Source: Mesorhizobium sp. B2-4-15 (GTDB taxonomy: Bacteria; Pseudomonadota; Alphaproteobacteria; Rhizobiales; Rhizobiaceae). Taken from it: a stretch of 64,000 bases of DNA. The translations under genes were made by a program, and so were the position numbers. The notes beneath the pieces were generated by a model. It did no database searches, was not told where the DNA came from, and was given only the letters and a program-made list of their open reading frames with translations. The stretch covers positions 62,001-126,000 of the forward strand of contig NZ_VFUZ01000002.1 in assembly GCF_006658505.1 (NCBI RefSeq), given 5' to 3'. This document shows, piece after piece, positions 15,116 to 32,674 of the stretch. Each line of letters starts with the position of its first letter. Position 1 is the stretch's first letter.

Positions 15116-15281
15116 GCGCTTCTTCCTTCTCCCCCTTGTGGGAGAAGGTGGATCGGCGCGGTAGCGCCGAGACGGATGAGGGGTGTTCCAGCGGAGTGAG
15201 ACGTTGGTGTTCCCTGGAACACCCCTCATCCGTCGCCTTCGGCGACACCTTCTCCCACAAGGGGGAGAAGGAAGAGCGCAG
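15116..15281. repeat. Nested palindromic intergenic repeat between mgdD and tdm
   Basis: Two inverted arms of about 70 bp share CTTCTCCCCCTTGTGGGAGA at the tip and ACGGATGAGGGGTGTTCCAG at the base, around a roughly 20-bp centre. The tip is itself a hairpin (TTCTCCC..GGGAGAA), and between tip and base each arm has a small variable stem (GGCGCGGTAGCGCC in one, GTCGCCTTCGGCGAC in the other). No open frame lies inside. This is a rhizobial dispersed-repeat architecture; in the transcript it would form a long cruciform-like hairpin that could terminate or process the mgd-tdm message. Confidence 0.8.
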
Positions 15282-24117: not shown

Positions 24118-25014
24118 TCAATGCTCCCAGAAATAGACGGTTGCGGGCTCGGGCTCCCAGACCCTTGCATTGTCTATGCCGGGCAGTTTGGTCAGCGCGC
24201 GATATTCCGAGCCGAAGGCGACGTACTGGTCGGTTTCGGCCATGACGGCGGGCTTGCAGGCGATCGGGTCGCGCACGACGCCAAAACCGTTCTTGGTGCC
24301 GACAACGAAGGTGAAGAAGCCGTCGAGGTCGGAGAGGGTGCCTTCCAGCGCCTCGCCGAGATTCTTGCCATGCGCCATCTGCGAGGAAAGGTAGGCGGCC
24401 GCGACCTCGGTGTCGTTTTCGGTCTCGAAGGTCATGCCTTCGCGGATCAACTCGCGGCGGACATTGTTGTGGTTGGAGAGCGAGCCATTGTGCACCAGGC
24501 ACTGGTCGGCACCGGTCGAGAATGGATGCGCGCCCATCGTCGTCACCGCCGATTCGGTCGCCATGCGGGTGTGGCCGATGCCATGCGTGCCGGTCATCTT
24601 GCGGACATCGAAGCGATCGACGACCGCTTCGGGCAGGCCGACCTCCTTGTAGATCTCGACCACGTCACCGGCGCCCATGACGCGGACGTCGGGACGCAAC
24701 GTCTGGATGGCCTCGCGGGCCTCGTCGATCTTGTCGGGGCGGGTTCTGACCACGGCGTGGGTCGACTTCACCGCGATGCTCACTGGCACGCCGAGCGCCT
24801 TGGCGAGCTCGGTATCGAGGTCGCGAAAATCGCTGCCTGGTTTCGCCGATTGGATGGTGATCTTGGCTTCGTTGCTGGATGGGGCGCCATAGATGGCGAT
24901 GCCCGCGCTGTCCGGGCCGCGATCGCTGAGCGATACCAACATCTCCGACAGCATCGCCCCGAGCTTGGGCTCCAACGATTTGTCCTTCAGAAACAGCCCG
25001 ACGATTCCACACAT
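24118..25014 (-). CDS. mgsA: N-methylglutamate synthase subunit A (class II glutamine amidotransferase)
   Basis: A 298-residue Ntn-hydrolase beginning MCGIVGLFLKD, so that Cys2 becomes the N-terminal nucleophile after Met removal. SDRGPDSAGIAIYG and GIGHTRMATESAV are the standard amidotransferase motifs, with LVHNGSLSNHNNVRREL following. It is the first gene of the mgsABC-gmaS-mgdABCD run. GGAGG lies just before the ATG. An 81-bp gap upstream holds an operator-like element, so transcription could start here even though the preceding cassette is co-directional. Confidence 0.93.
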   Translation of the reverse strand: MCGIVGLFLKDKSLEPKLGAMLSEMLVSLSDRGPDSAGIAIYGAPSSNEAKITIQSAKPGSDFRDLDTELAKALGVPVSIAVKSTHAVVRTRPDKIDEAREAIQTLRPDVRVMGAGDVVEIYKEVGLPEAVVDRFDVRKMTGTHGIGHTRMATESAVTTMGAHPFSTGADQCLVHNGSLSNHNNVRRELIREGMTFETENDTEVAAAYLSSQMAHGKNLGEALEGTLSDLDGFFTFVVGTKNGFGVVRDPIACKPAVMAETDQYVAFGSEYRALTKLPGIDNARVWEPEPATVYFWEH

Positions 25015-25062
25015 GTCAGCCTCCGACCTTTGTTCTCTGGAGATGTACCGAATGAGTTCCGG

Positions 25063-25090
25063 GAATTCAATGGGATGAAAAAAATATTCC
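25063..25090 (-). promoter_or_regulatory. Candidate promoter/operator in front of mgsA
   Basis: In the 81-bp gap between the 109-residue membrane protein gene and mgsA, the minus strand reads TATTTTTTTCATCCCATTGA. The plus-strand 11-mer ATGGGATGAAA (25070-25080) is repeated exactly upstream of tmoX (39474-39484). In both places a -10-like A/T hexamer abuts TTTCAT, as expected for a repressor site over the transcription start. A good -35 is not seen. Confidence 0.4.
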
Positions 25091-25095
25091 TGTAG

Positions 25096-25425
25096 TTATA
25101 TATCTGCCTGCGCACCGCCACCGGCGGTATCGTCCTGGTGGCGTTCGCTGTGAACCCGTTTGGCGGTGCGGATGCGGGCGATCTTGTAGGCGTCGAGTAT
25201 CGACAGCGCATAGATCAGGAGACCACCCGCATGGCGGCCGACGAACCTGGCGTCCGGCGGCGCGATCTTCATCGTTACCCACGCCAGGATCACCATGAAG
25301 AAGATGAACTGCAGGCCGCGCACCGGCACACCGAGAATGACGTGTCCGCTTGCCGGCAGGATGATTGCCGCGCCGAGAACCAGATACGGGTTCGGTGGAG
25401 CGGGCGCTTTGGTCGTGCTGGTCAT
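25096..25425 (-). CDS. Small integral membrane protein of unknown function (cassette gene 6)
   Basis: A 109-residue protein not recognised from any named family. It has two or three hydrophobic segments (about 14-33, 36-53 and 66-78) and a charged C-terminal tail. The ATG overlaps the stop of the preceding gene by ATGA, indicating translational coupling. It is the last gene of a tight six-gene cassette and lies 81 bp before mgsA. An accessory role to the amine permease or the NMG complex is only inferred from position. Confidence 0.7.
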   Translation of the reverse strand: MTSTTKAPAPPNPYLVLGAAIILPASGHVILGVPVRGLQFIFFMVILAWVTMKIAPPDARFVGRHAGGLLIYALSILDAYKIARIRTAKRVHSERHQDDTAGGGAQADI

Positions 25426-26111
25426 GCGGCCTGCCTTTCAGCATGGTTGATGGCGTCGCGAAGCGCCGAAATCGAAGTGAGCAACCTTTCGACCAGCGCC
25501 GGATCGAGCATTGCACCGCCGAAATCGGCCTGCCGGAACACGCCGTAACGCGCGCGCTGCGCCTCGGCCAGGAGCCAGACGATACGAACGCCCTTGGGTG
25601 TGATGAGCAGCTCCTTGGCGCGTCCGTCGCAAAAGAGGTCGAGATGGCTGGCAATCAGGCCCTGCGGAAAGCGTGCGCCCCTGCCGTCTGTCCGCAGCAC
25701 TGCTTCCGCCGGAAATCCCGGGGCCTTCGGCAGCGTATGTTCCAGGTGGTCGAAATTGGAGAACGTCGTCGGCGACCCTGGCCGCATCATCATGTCGAAA
25801 GTGGCGGCGAACGCGACCTTTTCGAGGATCGAGATCGATAACCAGCGAACCGGCAGCTTTCGCGTCGCCAACGTATCGACGATGGTCCGCACCTGAACGC
25901 GCCGGCCCTTCCATGAGCCTTCCCAGGTGACGATGCCAGCGGTGCCGTCCGAGACATTGGCTGCATTCGAAATGACGGAACGAAGGCTGGCTTGTTCGAC
26001 CGCGAGTGCGGCCGAAGCCCTGTTGCGGCTGGCGCGCACCAGCCACATCAGGTGAAGGACGAGAGCCAGGGCAATCGCCCCGGCGAGCAGTGCTGACGTC
26101 ACCTCGGACAC
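25422..26111 (-). CDS. Membrane-anchored protein of unknown function (cassette gene 5)
   Basis: A 229-residue protein with one N-terminal hydrophobic helix (ALLAGAIALALVLHLMWLV, about 7-25) and a soluble remainder, presumably facing the cytoplasm or periplasm as an anchored domain. No enzyme motif was found. GTG at 26111 is the best start; an ATG lies close upstream but in another frame. It is 45 bp after the APC permease and overlaps the next gene by four bases. Its codon use and orientation match its neighbours, so it appears to be a genuine operon member rather than an insertion. Confidence 0.7.
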   Translation of the reverse strand: MSEVTSALLAGAIALALVLHLMWLVRASRNRASAALAVEQASLRSVISNAANVSDGTAGIVTWEGSWKGRRVQVRTIVDTLATRKLPVRWLSISILEKVAFAATFDMMMRPGSPTTFSNFDHLEHTLPKAPGFPAEAVLRTDGRGARFPQGLIASHLDLFCDGRAKELLITPKGVRIVWLLAEAQRARYGVFRQADFGGAMLDPALVERLLTSISALRDAINHAERQAA

Positions 26112-26156
26112 CTTGTCATGCCATGCCCGCCCGGGATCTGGACGGGCCTTCTTCCA

Positions 26157-27563
26157 TCAATACCCCTGAGGCTTCGGCCACGGCATGGAGAACTGATCGC
26201 CGCGACGCACGAACTTGTAGCGGTAGAAATGAAACCATACCGAGATCAGGAAGTAGAACGCGATCATCGCGATCAGTTGCGAACCGAAGCCGAGGAAGAT
26301 GGCGAAGTAGGTGACCACGCACAGGCAGAACAGCACGATGGCCGGCAGCGGATGGAAAGGATGCGTGTAGCCACGGCGGATCGAACCCAGCGGCCACTTC
26401 TTGCGGAACATCATGATGTTGATGCTCATGAACGTGTATTGCAGCACGCCAGACAGGATCGAGAAGGTGATCGCCTGGTTGAGGTCGGCGATGAAGGCGA
26501 AGGCGAGCGCGATCGGCAGCAGGAACAAGATCGAGCGGTAGGGTGTGCGATACTTCGGATGCACGGCCGAGAACCAACTCGGCAGGTAGCGGTCGCGGCC
26601 AAGCGAGAACCAGGCGCGCGCGGCATCGTTGATGCAGCCATTGGCGGAGGCGATGGCGGCAAGCAGCGTCGCGACGAACAGGAGGTTTTCGAGCAGCGGG
26701 CTGCCGGTCAGCTTGCCCGCGTCCCAAAGCGGATAGGGCGTGATGCCGAGATATTCCCATGGCATCAGCGAGGCGCAGACATACCAGGTCATGGCGGCGG
26801 CGATGAGCAGGGTGATCATGCCCGCCATGGTGCCGTAGGGGAGCGAGCGTGCCGGCGAGCGCACTTCCTCGGCGGCCTGCGTGGTACCCTCGATGCCGAG
26901 ATAATACCAGATGCCGAACTGGAAGGCTGCGATGACGCCGATCCAGCCATAGGGGAGCGCATTGCCAGGCGTGACCAGTTCGTTGAGCTTCAGCACCGCG
27001 CCTTGCGTCCACGGGCTGACCGAGAAGAACAGGATCACGATCGAGACATAGGCGATCGCGGTGATGACGAAGTTGACGTTGAGCGTCATCAGCACGCCGC
27101 GATAGTTGAGCCATGCCAGCACCACGATGGTGGCGGCGATGAAGGAATTGTGGGTGAGCCCATCGATCCCCGCCTTGGCGACGATCGTGTCGCCGAGCAG
27201 GATCGCATCGGAGACTTCGAGCATCGTGTAGGCGAAAACCAGGAACAGCGCGACGTTGAAGGCCATCAGCGGCCCGACGATGTGTTTTGCCTGGGCGTAT
27301 TGGCCGCCCGCGGCGGCAACGGTCGACGTGACCTCGGAATCGATCATGGCGACGGATGTGTAGAGCAGGCCAACGACCCAGCACACGATAAGCGCCGCCA
27401 GCGTACCGCCCTTGTCGGCGGAGAAGTTCCAGCCCGTGAATTCGCCGACCAGGACGATGCCGACGCCGAGCGCCCAGACATGGGCCGGGCCGAGCACCCT
27501 GAGCAGCGAAACCCTGTCGCCGCCATTTACCGCCGTTCCTGCCGTTTCAACCGCGACCGTCAT
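26157..27563 (-). CDS. APC-superfamily permease, ethanolamine-permease-like (cassette gene 4)
   Basis: A 468-residue transporter with about twelve hydrophobic helices. GIVLVGEFTGWNFSADKGGT in helix 1 and FGIWYYLGIEGTTQAAEEV in helix 6 resemble bacterial ethanolamine permeases of the APC superfamily. No ethanolamine ammonia-lyase genes are nearby; instead the gene is surrounded by methylamine-pathway genes, so a short-chain amine such as methylamine or dimethylamine is a reasonable cargo. Start at 27563 has GGGGA upstream. It is 15 bp behind the 53-codon membrane gene, and the two tiny upstream genes are equally close. Confidence 0.85.
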   Translation of the reverse strand: MTVAVETAGTAVNGGDRVSLLRVLGPAHVWALGVGIVLVGEFTGWNFSADKGGTLAALIVCWVVGLLYTSVAMIDSEVTSTVAAAGGQYAQAKHIVGPLMAFNVALFLVFAYTMLEVSDAILLGDTIVAKAGIDGLTHNSFIAATIVVLAWLNYRGVLMTLNVNFVITAIAYVSIVILFFSVSPWTQGAVLKLNELVTPGNALPYGWIGVIAAFQFGIWYYLGIEGTTQAAEEVRSPARSLPYGTMAGMITLLIAAAMTWYVCASLMPWEYLGITPYPLWDAGKLTGSPLLENLLFVATLLAAIASANGCINDAARAWFSLGRDRYLPSWFSAVHPKYRTPYRSILFLLPIALAFAFIADLNQAITFSILSGVLQYTFMSINIMMFRKKWPLGSIRRGYTHPFHPLPAIVLFCLCVVTYFAIFLGFGSQLIAMIAFYFLISVWFHFYRYKFVRRGDQFSMPWPKPQGY

Positions 27564-27578
27564 CGTTCAAATCCCCAC

Positions 27579-27740
27579 TCAGATACGGTGTTTTTCGGAA
27601 ACGGCCTCAAGCTCGCCTTCGCGCGATGAGGTCAGAACGCCCTCGCTGTAGGTCGTGTCGACCTTGAACCAGTCGAAGAGCATCCACAGGGCGAGCACGA
27701 TCGAGATGCCCCAGCATGCATAAGAGAGTGCTATCCACAT
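27579..27740 (-). CDS. 53-residue single-helix membrane protein (cassette gene 3)
   Basis: This frame is short but well supported. ATG at 27740 follows GGGGAAGC, and the protein starts MWIALSYACWGISIVLALWM, one transmembrane helix (about 1-23). A charged 30-residue tail ending EAVSEKHRI follows. It lies 14 bp after the 125-residue gene and 15 bp before the APC permease, so it fills its slot exactly. No known family was recognised. Small single-helix partners are known for several secondary transporters and pumps, which makes a permease-accessory role a reasonable guess. Confidence 0.7.
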   Translation of the reverse strand: MWIALSYACWGISIVLALWMLFDWFKVDTTYSEGVLTSSREGELEAVSEKHRI

Positions 27741-27754
27741 GATGCTTCCCCGGT

Positions 27755-28132
27755 CTACTTGTCTTCGAATTTCTCGATGATGACGTCGCGATATTCCCGG
27801 TCGGATGCGCGGAACAGGAACACGAAATAGGCGATCAGCACGATCGCCATGATGATGAGCGTCGGCCAGTCGATCACATAGTGGAACCGGTTCTGGATGA
27901 CGTCATGCGCCGTTTCCGGCGTGTAGCCCAGCTTTTCCCAGATCGAGGCCATGGTTGGATTCTGGCCGAGGGCTTCCCAGGTCTTGGCGTCGAGCGCGTC
28001 GATGGATTTGGCCGCGCCGGCGAGGCCGAGCTTCAGCGGCAGCCATAGCGCCACGAATATGGCCACCACCACGACGACGATATCGAAGATCTGCCCGGTC
28101 TTGCTCTGCTCCGGCGGCGTATAGCGGGACAT
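27755..28132 (-). CDS. Two-helix membrane protein of unknown function (cassette gene 2)
   Basis: A 125-residue protein with hydrophobic segments at about 14-38 (IFDIVVVVVAIFVALWLPLK) and 88-110 (WPTLIIMAIVLIAYFVFLF) joined by a roughly 50-residue soluble loop containing KTWEALGQNPTMASIWEKLG. The start at 28132 follows AGGAGCC. It lies 12 bp after cassette gene 1 and 14 bp before gene 3. No named family was recognised; the loop is the most distinctive part for a remote-homology search. Confidence 0.75.
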   Translation of the reverse strand: MSRYTPPEQSKTGQIFDIVVVVVAIFVALWLPLKLGLAGAAKSIDALDAKTWEALGQNPTMASIWEKLGYTPETAHDVIQNRFHYVIDWPTLIIMAIVLIAYFVFLFRASDREYRDVIIEKFEDK

Positions 28133-28144
28133 GGCTCCTACCTC

Positions 28145-28432
28145 TCAGGACTTGCGGTTGCGGAACGCGTCCGCGTTCTTGATGTCGAGCCCGTAGATGA
28201 ACTCCTTGTCTTCCTTGTAATGCCTGACCATCGCCAGGATGGCGGCCGTGTTGAAGATCAGCACGGCGGCGGCGGCAACCGCTACGACGGCCTTGATGCC
28301 GCCGTGTGGGATGTAGGGCCATGTCATGGAAAGGACGAACAGGATCGTCGCCCACAGGCAGATGATCAGGAGCGCGGAGCCGCGTAAATCGGAACGGTAC
28401 AGCGCTTCGATGCGCTGCTGCAGGTCTGACAT
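28145..28432 (-). CDS. Two-helix membrane protein of unknown function (cassette gene 1)
   Basis: A 95-residue protein with two hydrophobic segments (about 19-38 and 46-70), a charged N-terminus (MSDLQQRIEALYRSDLRG) and a basic C-terminus. The ATG at 28432 has AAGGGGAA, the same ribosome site as the other APC permease gene at 12.4 kb. It is the first gene of the six-gene cassette and diverges from dmmD. Size and topology recall the small subunits that accompany some symporters, but no specific family was recognised. Confidence 0.75.
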   Translation of the reverse strand: MSDLQQRIEALYRSDLRGSALLIICLWATILFVLSMTWPYIPHGGIKAVVAVAAAAVLIFNTAAILAMVRHYKEDKEFIYGLDIKNADAFRNRKS

Positions 28433-28487
28433 CGGTTTTTTCCCCTTTTTCCGGCGCCCGGTTCCGAAGTTGCCGCTCGCCGCTCTC

Positions 28488-28513
28488 TTTCAAGAGAGTG
28501 AAATTTTTTTCAC
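28488..28513. promoter_or_regulatory. Candidate operator between the membrane cassette and dmmD
   Basis: TTTCAAGAGAGTGAAA (28488-28503) is an inverted repeat with 5-bp arms and 6-bp centre; it overlaps a second palindrome, GTGAAATTTTTTTCAC (28498-28513), with perfect 6-bp arms. Another everted pair, TGAAA-N8-TTTCA, lies at 28598-28615 nearer dmmD. The 288-bp divergent region contains no gene. The half-site TTTCA/TGAAA recurs upstream of the other amine operons. Confidence 0.45.
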
Positions 28514-28720
28514 AAAATCAGCCCGATTTCCGGAATTGTCAAGACGAATTTACGCAGAGTTAACCGCTTGGCCAAGGCAATGAATTTTGCCTGACAATGA
28601 AATTATTTGCTTTCAGGGGATTGCGGGTCTCTCTCGTTTGCGGTCAATATTCGCGCAAAGCCCCAGCCGCTGTGCGAAGGGGCAGGGAACATCAACGACT
28701 ATCGGACGGAGGACGATCGG

Positions 28721-29854
28721 ATGACGGCATCCTGGAGATTTTCGACCCTGGCGGATCGCCATCGCGCTCTGGGTTCGAAGCTCGAAGACTGGAGCGGCAT
28801 GGGGACCGCCTGGACCTACGACAAGGATGCCGACGAGGAATACATCGCCATCCGCACCAAGGCCGGGCTGATGGATGTTTCCGGCCTGAAGAAAGTCCAT
28901 ATCACCGGGCCGCACGCCTCGCATCTCATCGATCTCGCCACCACGCGCGATGTCGAAAAGATCTATCCCGGCAAATCGGCCTATGCCTGCATGCTGAACG
29001 AAGCGGGAAAGTTCACCGACGACTGCATCCTCTACCGCACCGGGCCGAACGCCTGGATGGTCGTGCATGGCTCAGGCACCGGCCATGAGGAGTTGCAGCG
29101 GGCGGCGACGGGCCGTGACGTGTCGCTGCGCTTCGACGACAATCTGCACGACCTGTCGCTGCAGGGGCCGACAGCGGTCGACTATCTGGCCAAGCACGTG
29201 CCCGGCATTCGCGACCTCAACTATTTCCACCACATGCAGACGCAGTTGTTCGGTTTTCCGGTCATGATTTCGCGCACCGGCTACACCGGCGAGCGCGGCT
29301 ACGAGATCTTCTGCCGCGGTCAAGACGCAGGCACGATCTGGGACAGGATTCTTGAAGAGGGCAAGAGCGACGGCATCGTCCCGTGCCGCTTCACCACGCT
29401 CGACATGCTGCGCGTCGAGAGCTACCTGCTGTTTTACCCCTACGACAATTCGCAGAAATACCCGTTCGAGAATGAAGGCCCCGGCGATACGCTCTGGGAA
29501 CTCGGCCTCGACTTCACCGTCAGCCCCGGCAAGACGGGCTTTCGCGGTGCCGAGGAACACTATCGCCTGAAAGGCAAGGAGCGCTTCAAGATCTACGGCG
29601 TCCTGCTCGACGGCAAGGAGCCGGCCGACGAGGGCGCTCCTGTCTATCGCGACGGCAAAAAGGTCGGCGTGGTGACCTGCGCCATGTATTCGCCGCTGGT
29701 CGAGAAATCGATGGGTATCGCCCGGCTCGACGTCGACTGCGCGGTGAAGGACACCAAACTCGAAATCCGCAACAAGAGCGGTTCGATCAAGGCGACCGCG
29801 CAGCCCTTGCCGTTCGACGATCCCAAGAAGATCAAGCGTACGGCGAAAGGCTGA
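28721..29854 (+). CDS. dmmD: Dimethylamine monooxygenase-associated GcvT-family protein
   Basis: A 377-residue aminomethyltransferase-like protein (GcvT fold) with the THF-site motif SRTGYTGERGYEIF and the C-terminal glycine-cleavage T barrel. In marine dimethylamine degraders a gene of this type begins the dmmDABC operon; it is thought to transfer the oxidised methyl group to tetrahydrofolate instead of leaving free formaldehyde. The start at 28721 follows GGAGGA eight bases before ATG; a longer frame beginning 28607 has no such support. Gene order D-A-B-C here is the same. Alternative readings, DMSP demethylase DmdA or plain GcvT, are less likely because no glycine-cleavage or DMSP genes accompany it. 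Confidence 0.87.
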   Translation: MTASWRFSTLADRHRALGSKLEDWSGMGTAWTYDKDADEEYIAIRTKAGLMDVSGLKKVHITGPHASHLIDLATTRDVEKIYPGKSAYACMLNEAGKFTDDCILYRTGPNAWMVVHGSGTGHEELQRAATGRDVSLRFDDNLHDLSLQGPTAVDYLAKHVPGIRDLNYFHHMQTQLFGFPVMISRTGYTGERGYEIFCRGQDAGTIWDRILEEGKSDGIVPCRFTTLDMLRVESYLLFYPYDNSQKYPFENEGPGDTLWELGLDFTVSPGKTGFRGAEEHYRLKGKERFKIYGVLLDGKEPADEGAPVYRDGKKVGVVTCAMYSPLVEKSMGIARLDVDCAVKDTKLEIRNKSGSIKATAQPLPFDDPKKIKRTAKG

Positions 29855-29894: not shown

Positions 29895-30491
29895 ATGGCA
29901 GCCAAAAGCATCATCAGCCGGCCGGTCTACGGAACGCTCTCTCCGCAGCCCGGCAAGCACCATCTTTTCATCGCCGATGCGGAGGGGGCGCTCGCTATAT
30001 CCGAGATGGCCGCGAAAGCGCCGGCCGGCTTTTTCGACGACGCCGAGATCGTCTTCATCCCCGGTCCTGACGGCAAACACATCGCCGCGCTGGAATCGCT
30101 GGGGCCGGCGCAGTTTCACCAGGCGCCGTCCTTCGCCAGCCTGCTGCCGAGGCTGAAGCAGACGCTGAGCAATGCACATATGGGCCTGCGCCTCTATCTC
30201 AGCGGCACCGAAGGCCTGATCGGCCAGGCCATGCAGGTGGCGCTCGAAGCCGGCATCGATCATACCTCCATGCAGACCGAGCATCGCGGCTCGCTGGCGC
30301 GGCGCATGCAATGCGTGCACTGCAAGGGCATCACCGAGAATGTGACGACGCAGCCCGCCACCTGTTCGCATTGCGGCCTGCTGCTTCTGGTGCGCGATCA
30401 TTATTCCAGGCGCCTCGCCGCCTTCCAGGGCGTGTGCATCAATGCCGAGGATCGCAGCGAAATTCCTCCGATGGAGGAGGCCTTCCCATGA
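29895..30491 (+). CDS. dmmA: Dimethylamine monooxygenase subunit DmmA family, zinc-ribbon protein
   Basis: A 198-residue protein whose last third carries a four-cysteine ribbon (Cys140-x2-Cys143 and Cys157-x2-Cys160), with an N-terminal domain lacking familiar motifs. Such a protein is one of the three components reported as needed for aerobic dimethylamine N-demethylation. Its position between dmmD and the ferredoxin-reductase gene is the expected one. The end overlaps dmmB by ATGA. Its biochemical role within the complex is not known from sequence. Confidence 0.83.
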   Translation: MAAKSIISRPVYGTLSPQPGKHHLFIADAEGALAISEMAAKAPAGFFDDAEIVFIPGPDGKHIAALESLGPAQFHQAPSFASLLPRLKQTLSNAHMGLRLYLSGTEGLIGQAMQVALEAGIDHTSMQTEHRGSLARRMQCVHCKGITENVTTQPATCSHCGLLLLVRDHYSRRLAAFQGVCINAEDRSEIPPMEEAFP

Positions 30492-31463: not shown

Positions 31464-32504
31464 TTGGGAATCACCTTTCGCAAGGAAACATTCCGCGACG
31501 ACTTCACCTTCAGGAACAGCCCGGAGCACATCAGGCGGTTTCCGTTCCCGTTCCACGAAGACAGCTACATGTATGCGGTCAACATCGAGCCGCATGTCGT
31601 CGGCCCGAAGGGCAGCGTGCTGGAGAACCTGATCGACGTCGACGAACATTACGTCGCCGAGATGCAGGACCGCGCATTGGTGCTGGCCGAGGACCCGCTG
31701 CGCTGCCAGTCGCTGCCGCACATGACGCTAGCCGGCTGGGATCTGCTGGAACTCCTGATGGAGCAGCAGGCGCTGGGCTATCCCGAGCATTTCACGCTGA
31801 CGCGCGACGGCGACCGCTGGCGCTGGATCAACAGGCCGCTCGGCATCGACGACACCTTCACCTTCGGCGACACCTCGACGCTGCCTTATGGTCCGATGGA
31901 ATACATCACCCGGCAGAGCCAGGGCGATTTCTGCATCCTCGACCAGCGCGACGGCAATCTGTGGATGGATGCCGGCATGGTCACCACCCAGGCCGACTGG
32001 TCGCTCGATTTCGACATCGGCATGAACTTCTTCGAGTGGCACGCGCCGGTGCCGCTGGCACATGAGAAGGGGATTTTCACGCGCGCGCTGAAGTTCCTCA
32101 CCAACATTCAGCAGGGCAAGCCGGCACGGCGCCTCAACTGGACGATGACCATCAATCCGCGTCTCGATACGAGCCCGGAAAATTACCACAAATGGGGGCC
32201 GGACCGGGCGACGGTCACGCCCGAGAATGTCGGCGACAAGGTGCATCTGCGCGTCGAATTGCAGAGCTTCTGGCGGCTGCCGCGCTCCAACGGCATCGTC
32301 TTCCCGATCCGCTGCTACCTGATCAAAATGGATGAGCTGGTGACGCAACCGAAATGGGCACGGCGCCTGCACCGCGTCATCCGCGACCTGCCCGAGGAAC
32401 TCGCCACCTACAAGGGCCTGACGCGCTACCGCTCGACCCTGGTCGAATGGCTGTCGAAGCTCGATGACGGCAGCCCGACGAGCCCGGGGTTTGGGCCGGA
32501 TTAG
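31464..32504 (+). CDS. dmmC: Haem-dependent oxidative N-demethylase subunit (DUF3445)
   Basis: A 346-residue DUF3445 protein, the presumed catalytic haem subunit that uses O2 to demethylate dimethylamine to methylamine. The conserved core includes RFPFPFHEDSYMYAVNIEP near the N-terminus, the region ending in FFEWHAPVPLAHEKGIF and the LQSFWRLPRSNGIVFPIR block. Translation probably begins at TTG 31464, because a strong AAGGAGGCG lies just upstream and no ATG exists nearby. It is 10 bp after dmmB. A palindromic repeat follows the stop and probably ends the operon. Confidence 0.88.
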   Translation: MGITFRKETFRDDFTFRNSPEHIRRFPFPFHEDSYMYAVNIEPHVVGPKGSVLENLIDVDEHYVAEMQDRALVLAEDPLRCQSLPHMTLAGWDLLELLMEQQALGYPEHFTLTRDGDRWRWINRPLGIDDTFTFGDTSTLPYGPMEYITRQSQGDFCILDQRDGNLWMDAGMVTTQADWSLDFDIGMNFFEWHAPVPLAHEKGIFTRALKFLTNIQQGKPARRLNWTMTINPRLDTSPENYHKWGPDRATVTPENVGDKVHLRVELQSFWRLPRSNGIVFPIRCYLIKMDELVTQPKWARRLHRVIRDLPEELATYKGLTRYRSTLVEWLSKLDDGSPTSPGFGPD

Positions 32505-32523: not shown

Positions 32524-32674
32524 AATCTCCCCACTTGAGGGGGAGATGTCGCCGAAGGCGACAGAGGGGGGCGCCGCGCGTGGAGCGCTAACCTCGTCCG
32601 CCGTAGAACGTTCAGCCTCCAGTCGAACCGACCCCCTCTGGCCTACCGGCCATCTCCCCCTCAAGGGGGGAGAT
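32524..32674. repeat. Nested palindromic intergenic repeat after dmmC
   Basis: Inverted arms 32524-32569 and 32631-32674 share ATCTCCCC-CTTGAGGGGGAGAT at the tip and CAGAGGGGG at the base, with a variable inner stem (GTCGCCGAAGGCGAC in the first arm and GGCCTACCGGCC in the second). The tip is a hairpin (ATCTCCCC..GGGGAGAT). The architecture is the same as the repeat at 15.1 kb but the sequence differs. It lies between the convergent dmmC and XRE-cupin genes and could act as a bidirectional terminator. Confidence 0.8.

Follow-up and report, generated by a model that had tools for sequence, protein, structure and literature searches.

The subject of this analysis is a putative amine-transport operon of Mesorhizobium sp. 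B2-4-15, located at positions 25096 to 28432 of a 64,000-nucleotide stretch of contig NZ_VFUZ01000002.1 (positions 62,001 to 126,000, forward strand); this whole stretch is referred to as the window. The operon is composed of six open reading frames (ORFs), all on the minus strand, which read from 28432 to 25096 in the order A-B-C-D-E-F. The intergenic spacings from A to E are 12, 14, 15 and 45 bp, and E and F share a 4-bp overlap. The mgsA gene (24118-25014) lies downstream of F, and dmmD (28607-29854) is divergent to A. The first-pass annotation of this DNA had given the proteins as 95, 125, 53, 468, 229 and 109 residues with these gaps and this overlap, and had placed them upstream of mgsA and opposite dmmD; the ORF coordinates agree on each point. 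The features are:

28145-28432, minus strand: gene A, 95 amino acids (aa), two predicted transmembrane (TM) helices and a conserved C-terminal tail, no family
27755-28132, minus strand: gene B, 125 aa, two TM helices predicted, with a loop of 55 residues, no family above cut-off
27579-27740, minus strand: gene C, 53 aa, a single TM helix predicted, tail conserved, no family
26157-27563, minus strand: gene D, 468 aa, APC-superfamily permease, PF00324 and PF13520 above cut-off
25422-26111, minus strand: gene E, 229 aa, N-terminal TM helix and a soluble domain, TtfA-like predicted fold
25096-25425, minus strand: gene F, a small membrane protein of 109 aa with weak similarity to DUF6677 and DUF5683
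28498-28513, no strand given: operator-like palindrome GTGAAATTTTTTTCAC between A and dmmD

The block is conserved as a whole. A total of 101 loci were examined, consisting of the best 80 of 373 relatives from a pattern scan of named species genomes together with 10 and 11 further regions. The order A-F is unchanged throughout, and the block is complete in 97 loci; the other four end at a contig edge, with L023 showing A and B only and L061, L133 and L138 showing A to D. The first-pass annotation had staked its proposal on the small frames being conserved in relatives, which they are. The sample is heavy in Mesorhizobium, forming 20 clusters at 85% identity of B with 77 loci in a single cluster. 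In distant members the lowest identities to the window proteins are 32% for A, 37% for B, 39% for C, 62% for D, 25% for E and 41% for F. The block is present in Alpha-, Beta- and Gammaproteobacteria: three records are gammaproteobacterial (L105, L107, L108), L134 is from a genome of a different class than that of the window, and a Paraburkholderia replicon (L154) encodes all six genes in order. It is also found in Paracoccus aminophilus JCM 7686, Aminobacter aminovorans KCTC 2477, Sinorhizobium meliloti Ak57 and Mesorhizobium ciceri WSM1271. Its distribution is sparse at wider range, with B detected in 32 of 61 relatives, 13 of 398 genomes of the phylum and 6 of 385 genomes of the class (Alphaproteobacteria).

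The small proteins are co-inherited with the permease. Within the class genomes, B (E ≤ 1e-3) and D (E ≤ 1e-60) occur in the identical six, and no further protein in the 385 reaches 1e-60 with D. Among 72,556 plasmid records, D (E ≤ 1e-50) and B (E ≤ 1e-5) each match 22, with identical genus tallies and with 18 accessions common to the best 20 of the 22 matches for each. Co-divergence was assessed from pairwise distances over the 14 loci that carry MgsC (N-methylglutamate synthase). With MgsC removed, the partial co-divergence with D is 0.86 for B, 0.84 for E, 0.78 for C, 0.64 for A and 0.49 for F, each value being reached by 0 of 999 permutations; the six proteins correlate with the divergence of MgsC itself at merely 0.22 to 0.44. 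Because co-divergence is high with D and low with MgsC, the six genes evolve as a unit that is partly independent of the adjoining pathway. Gene fusion was discarded as evidence for contact, as no two of A-F share one open frame in 26 loci.

In many bacteria of soil and water the block is linked to the genes of methylated-amine use, which were called in the locus flanks by identity thresholds set for this analysis. Methylated-amine genes flank 93 of the 101 loci, N-methylglutamate genes flank 87, and 14 of the 20 clusters have methylated-amine genes in their flanks. Among 22 carrier genomes, chosen for diversity rather than at random and with most Mesorhizobium left out, MgsC is encoded at an identity of at least 68% in 20 (16 of 18 carriers plus G068, G596, G686 and G756). 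The concern that the block might be found mostly without methylamine genes is contradicted by the counts of 93 loci, 14 clusters and 20 carrier genomes. In the class genomes MgsC is present in 52 of 385 (matches of at least 70% identity, two of them partial), and five of the six block carriers are among these 52 (hypergeometric p 2e-4, a value that overstates independence, as four of the five belong to one genus). MgsC also lies on the same replicon as the block in six of nine plasmid records. Gene order, conservation, co-occurrence, co-divergence and linkage to the N-methylglutamate pathway are shown for the block, as is the predicted fold of E.

The other enzymes of the island are less constant in the carriers. 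Tmm (trimethylamine monooxygenase) is found in 16 of the 22 genomes and the DUF3445 Dmm subunit (dimethylamine monooxygenase) in 11; the latter is a 346-aa gene of the window (31464-32504) whose S. meliloti homologue is annotated DUF3445. Since both are less constant than MgsC, methylamine is the likeliest shared substrate. Three genomes (G367, rated 100% complete, and G800 and G802, both unrated) encode the block and MgsC with neither Tmm nor Dmm, which argues for monomethylamine as the minimal common substrate. An in-frame TGA was reported in four Tmm matches; in the three checked it is the genuine stop codon, where the match ends.

Gene D encodes a permease of the APC superfamily, scoring well above the gathering cut-offs of Pfam families PF00324 (AA_permease; 104.8 bits, cut-off 24.6) and PF13520 (AA_permease_2; 94.1 bits, cut-off 27). 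Its strongest NCBIfam match is to TIGR00908, the family of ethanolamine permeases, at 169.8 bits against a cut-off of 381.75. D is 25-27% identical to six TIGR00908-matching proteins, two of which are above the family cut-off, and shares with the ethanolamine permease the TM1 motif G-x-[FY]-x-G-W-N. Besides its sub-cut-off score and its five partner genes, D differs in having V-G-E in TM1 where the six proteins have S-G-D or S-G-H, and in an extra C-terminal tail (QF.M.WP.P.GY) that is conserved in D and missing from all six. This tail is a plausible docking site. A further APC-type permease in the same island, TmoP, is above the cut-off of the trimethylamine N-oxide permease family NF053774; D exhibits 22% identity with it over about 310 columns, and NF053774 is absent from the 15 NCBIfam families that match D at E ≤ 1. 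In Rhizobium sp. RCAM05350 (L160), D matches as two adjacent pieces, which suggests a frameshift or an assembly error.

The nature of the substrate bears on one alternative, in which D would import or export an amino acid of the pathway (N-methylglutamate, gamma-glutamylmethylamide or glutamate) and not methylamine. APC permeases are mostly amino-acid carriers, and the N-methylglutamate pathway is the most constant partner of D; the closeness of D to the ethanolamine permease family points the other way, and this alternative is considered rather improbable. The residues at the predicted substrate site also bear on it. Among solved structures, the best sequence match of D is GkApcT (5oqt), aligned over residues 14-440 with an E-value of 6e-16. 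A phmmer alignment (about 60 bits) places Thr43-Gly44 of GkApcT at Val39-Gly40 of D, followed by Glu41, and pairs Phe231 with Trp219, Asp237 with Glu225 and Glu115 with Ala111. V39-G40-E41 and W45-N46 are invariant in all 107 D sequences aligned over residues 39-46, and A111, W219 and E225 are invariant in all 109 of the set, which is mostly Mesorhizobium. In PMC5803215, the backbone of GkApcT Thr43-Gly44 touches the substrate carboxylate, Asp237 is tested as a coupling site with Glu115, and Trp202 of AdiC is placed at the Phe231 site. In AdiC the carboxylate is bound by the side chain of Ser26, for which the D counterpart is Val39, so the valine found in 107 of 107 sequences speaks against an amino-acid substrate; this is suggestive only, as GkApcT uses backbone amides (PMC5803215). 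As aligned, the site residues of D hint that the substrate is an amine cation lacking a carboxylate.

The five partner proteins are small and are all predicted to contain TM segments. A hydropathy scan identified two in A, two in B with a 55-residue loop, one in C followed by a 32-residue tail, one in E followed by about 200 soluble residues and one above threshold in F. The earlier description of four of these proteins as almost wholly membrane-embedded is therefore overstated. Its statement that they belong to no nameable family is correct for A, B, C and E, which gave only weak matches below the Pfam cut-offs, but has to be softened for F: of its 14 orthologues, 11 weakly resemble DUF6677, with a best E of 3.4e-4, and 5 weakly resemble DUF5683, while single members are similar to other DUFs. 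The C-terminal tail of A is conserved as H-Y-x-x-D-K-x-x-I-Y-x-L-D (7 sequences) and the C-terminus of B as E-Y-R-x-V-I-x-E-x-F (15 sequences), while the tail of C is conserved around L-T-S-S-R-E-G with slight variation in L129-L132, L134 and L135. In one alphaproteobacterial genus (L129-L132), B is 159-160 aa long and its insertion splits the B match in the class-genome search. The protein database holds 895 homologues of B; among the best 120, the named ones are hypothetical or transmembrane proteins, apart from two with automatic cytochrome-oxidase names, and the best named matches are from Mesorhizobium. FixQ also gives weak matches, far under its cut-off, in 10 of 15 B sequences (best E 0.002). 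These FixQ matches, a WBS28 match of B and DUF4153/MFS matches of A are all below cut-offs, look like membrane composition and were set aside. Profile comparison did not support a duplication linking A with B or with C.

It is conceivable, if unlikely, that D imports the amine by itself and that A, B, C, E and F are transient insertion, stability or quality-control factors rather than subunits. A, B and C have conserved tails and co-diverge with D, which suggests lasting contacts, though a transient role would still be compatible with this.

Gene E is predicted to encode a protein with the core fold of TtfA behind an N-terminal TM helix. The predicted structure of E aligns with TtfA (6t84) at 11% identity with Foldseek TM-scores of 0.37 and 0.46, and a profile search with E returned only Slr0355 chains (E 1.2-1.3), with no sequence relationship to TtfA. 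E is predicted to carry a fold resembling that of a transporter-accessory protein, TtfA being the accessory factor of MmpL3 in mycobacteria, a transporter of a family unrelated to D.

The first-pass annotation had proposed a multi-subunit amine transporter or a membrane complex coupled to methylamine use. A transporter is the best reading and can be sharpened to methylamine; the evidence for several subunits is co-inheritance and co-divergence, and the complex stays at the level of a proposal. The reading favoured here, held tentatively at just under an even chance, is that the operon encodes an importer of short methylated amines, in which a permease works together with small partners of its own and with a factor for assembly or coupling. 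We infer its substrate, direction, complex formation and regulation as follows. D, as an APC permease akin to the ethanolamine permeases, would carry out transport; the invariant acidic residues of its TM1 and TM6 could hold the amine cation, and monomethylammonium would be the most likely common substrate. A, B and C would be dedicated small membrane subunits packed around D. E, with its membrane-anchored TtfA-like domain, and F may help to assemble or stabilise D or to couple it to the cytosolic methylamine enzymes. A stronger form of this proposal, which is possible but doubtful, is a hetero-oligomeric bacterial APC-fold transporter whose six components would include, besides the central amine permease, three very small membrane subunits and a TtfA-like assembling or coupling factor, and which would serve as the dedicated methylamine importer of the N-methylglutamate pathway. 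In that case TtfA-like factors would be seen to serve transporters outside mycobacteria, and the factor might correspond, in bacteria, to the CCDC47-like fold found in the multipass translocon of eukaryotes.

Several observations weigh against the importer. Eight of the 101 loci have no methylamine gene in their flanks (L022, L023, L102, L104, L108, L109, L110 and L133), though the genomes of L022, L102, L104, L108, L109 and L110 do encode MgsC. Of these loci, L133 spans only 3 kb, and the neighbours of L022 read from their translations as serine-cycle genes; Aminobacter has a similar neighbourhood with annotated phosphoenolpyruvate carboxylase and GlyA. One carrier genome, G040, has no MgsC match, and G511, an 82%-complete assembly, has a partial match of 51% only. 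The block is absent from 47 of the 52 class genomes with MgsC and is therefore an optional module that the pathway does not require. Genes within one operon can also co-diverge without their products touching, so contact is supported by the divergence data but unproven. The link between E and TtfA is confined to the predicted fold, with TM-scores below 0.5 and no sequence match. The substrate-site argument relies on alignment, and the AF2 model of D is of low confidence (pLDDT 54.4). Because the carboxylate contacts of GkApcT are backbone ones, the loss of Thr43 in D proves little, and for this reason the rating of the amino-acid substrate was raised a little and that of the methylamine importer lowered a little. 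Lastly, the FixQ matches and two cytochrome-oxidase names of B may leave another membrane role open for this protein.

Known systems resemble the block in part. GkApcT was solved with MgtS, a small TM protein packed on TM5 of an APC transporter; MgtS is an Escherichia coli protein found with the transporter expressed there, whereas the small proteins of the block are encoded with their permease. AmtB, a transporter named in a figure legend of methylated-amine gene clusters from Ruegeria, Methylocella and Pelagibacter in PMC5520151, belongs to another protein family than D. The names GmaS, Mgs and Mgd used for the window are those of the first-pass annotation; their homologues on plasmid pAMI6 of Paracoccus aminophilus carry these names in the accessible part of PMC4543880, where "permease" refers solely to TmoP. 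In the open-access full-text literature, outside which most subscription journals lie, no description of the block was found, including in the accessible parts of PMC5520151, PMC4543880, PMC13390433, PMC8235418 and PMC9800807, and the portions searched name no methylamine importer for the N-methylglutamate pathway. A Methyloversatilis transcriptome (PMC5023235) was not counted as support, as the methylamine-responsive amino-acid permeases of its abstract were not found identified in the available part and Mgs, Mgd and GmaS have q-values of 0.65-0.75. The block is a concrete and testable methylamine importer candidate for this pathway in named strains, and it ties the APC fold, which is usually a single polypeptide, to five partner genes. 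It also connects the unannotated E family to the TtfA fold and hints at a wider class of transporter-accessory factors.

The first-pass annotation had noted an operator motif shared by the island, and this is borne out. The site GTGAAATTTTTTTCAC upstream of A recurs with two mismatches upstream of tmm (33624) and tdm (15060), and at up to three mismatches it has four matches, compared with 0.42 expected from shuffles; one of the four is the palindrome at 28498 read from the opposite strand. Of 98 loci, most of them close kin, 74 have a site with at most one mismatch upstream of A, a count that has no shuffled control; the 21 distant loci listed have at least four mismatches to it. In Mesorhizobium, the PuuR-like regulator may control the block jointly with tmm and tdm, and its binding to the palindrome is a guess from gene linkage. 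In L023, A and B at the contig edge lie beside a gene 74% identical to this regulator; the genome, G040, is rated 100% complete and has no MgsC, Tmm or Dmm match.

A sensory role, with D acting as a transceptor and A-F relaying an amine signal to a regulator, is very unlikely. It would suit the response-regulator-like genes that, from translations, adjoin A in L024 and L138, lie divergently beside A in L134 and occur some kb away in L021 and L022, together with one annotated some kb away in L155. Pfam and NCBIfam scans identified no signalling domain in the six proteins, no response-regulator-like gene lies beside A in the window, L107 or L135, and the PuuR-like regulator gene of the window sits beyond the dmm genes. 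Response-regulator-like genes near A occur mostly in loci with serine-cycle-like neighbours.

Ten neighbouring genes of the window were compared with NCBIfam. TmoP, Tdm and Tmm are above their cut-offs, and the scan also placed the protein at 29895-30491 in the DmmA family and identified a choline/betaine-type ABC set and the PuuR-like regulator. The transport genes among the ten are TmoP and the ABC set, with no evident methylamine importer. In other genomes, a universal-stress-protein-like gene is read from translation between D and E in L134, and in Paracoccus sp. MA (L156) such a gene is annotated immediately upstream of A. Two distant genera (L153, L155) have homogentisate pathway genes, hmgA and its neighbours, close to the block. 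No RNA element was found above threshold in 25000-29000. A long inverted repeat with 24-bp arms that are 96% complementary is present at 32525-32674 in the dmm/regulator intergenic region, and near 15120-15260, upstream of tdm, there is a palindromic element that looks similar; both may be mobile palindromic repeats.

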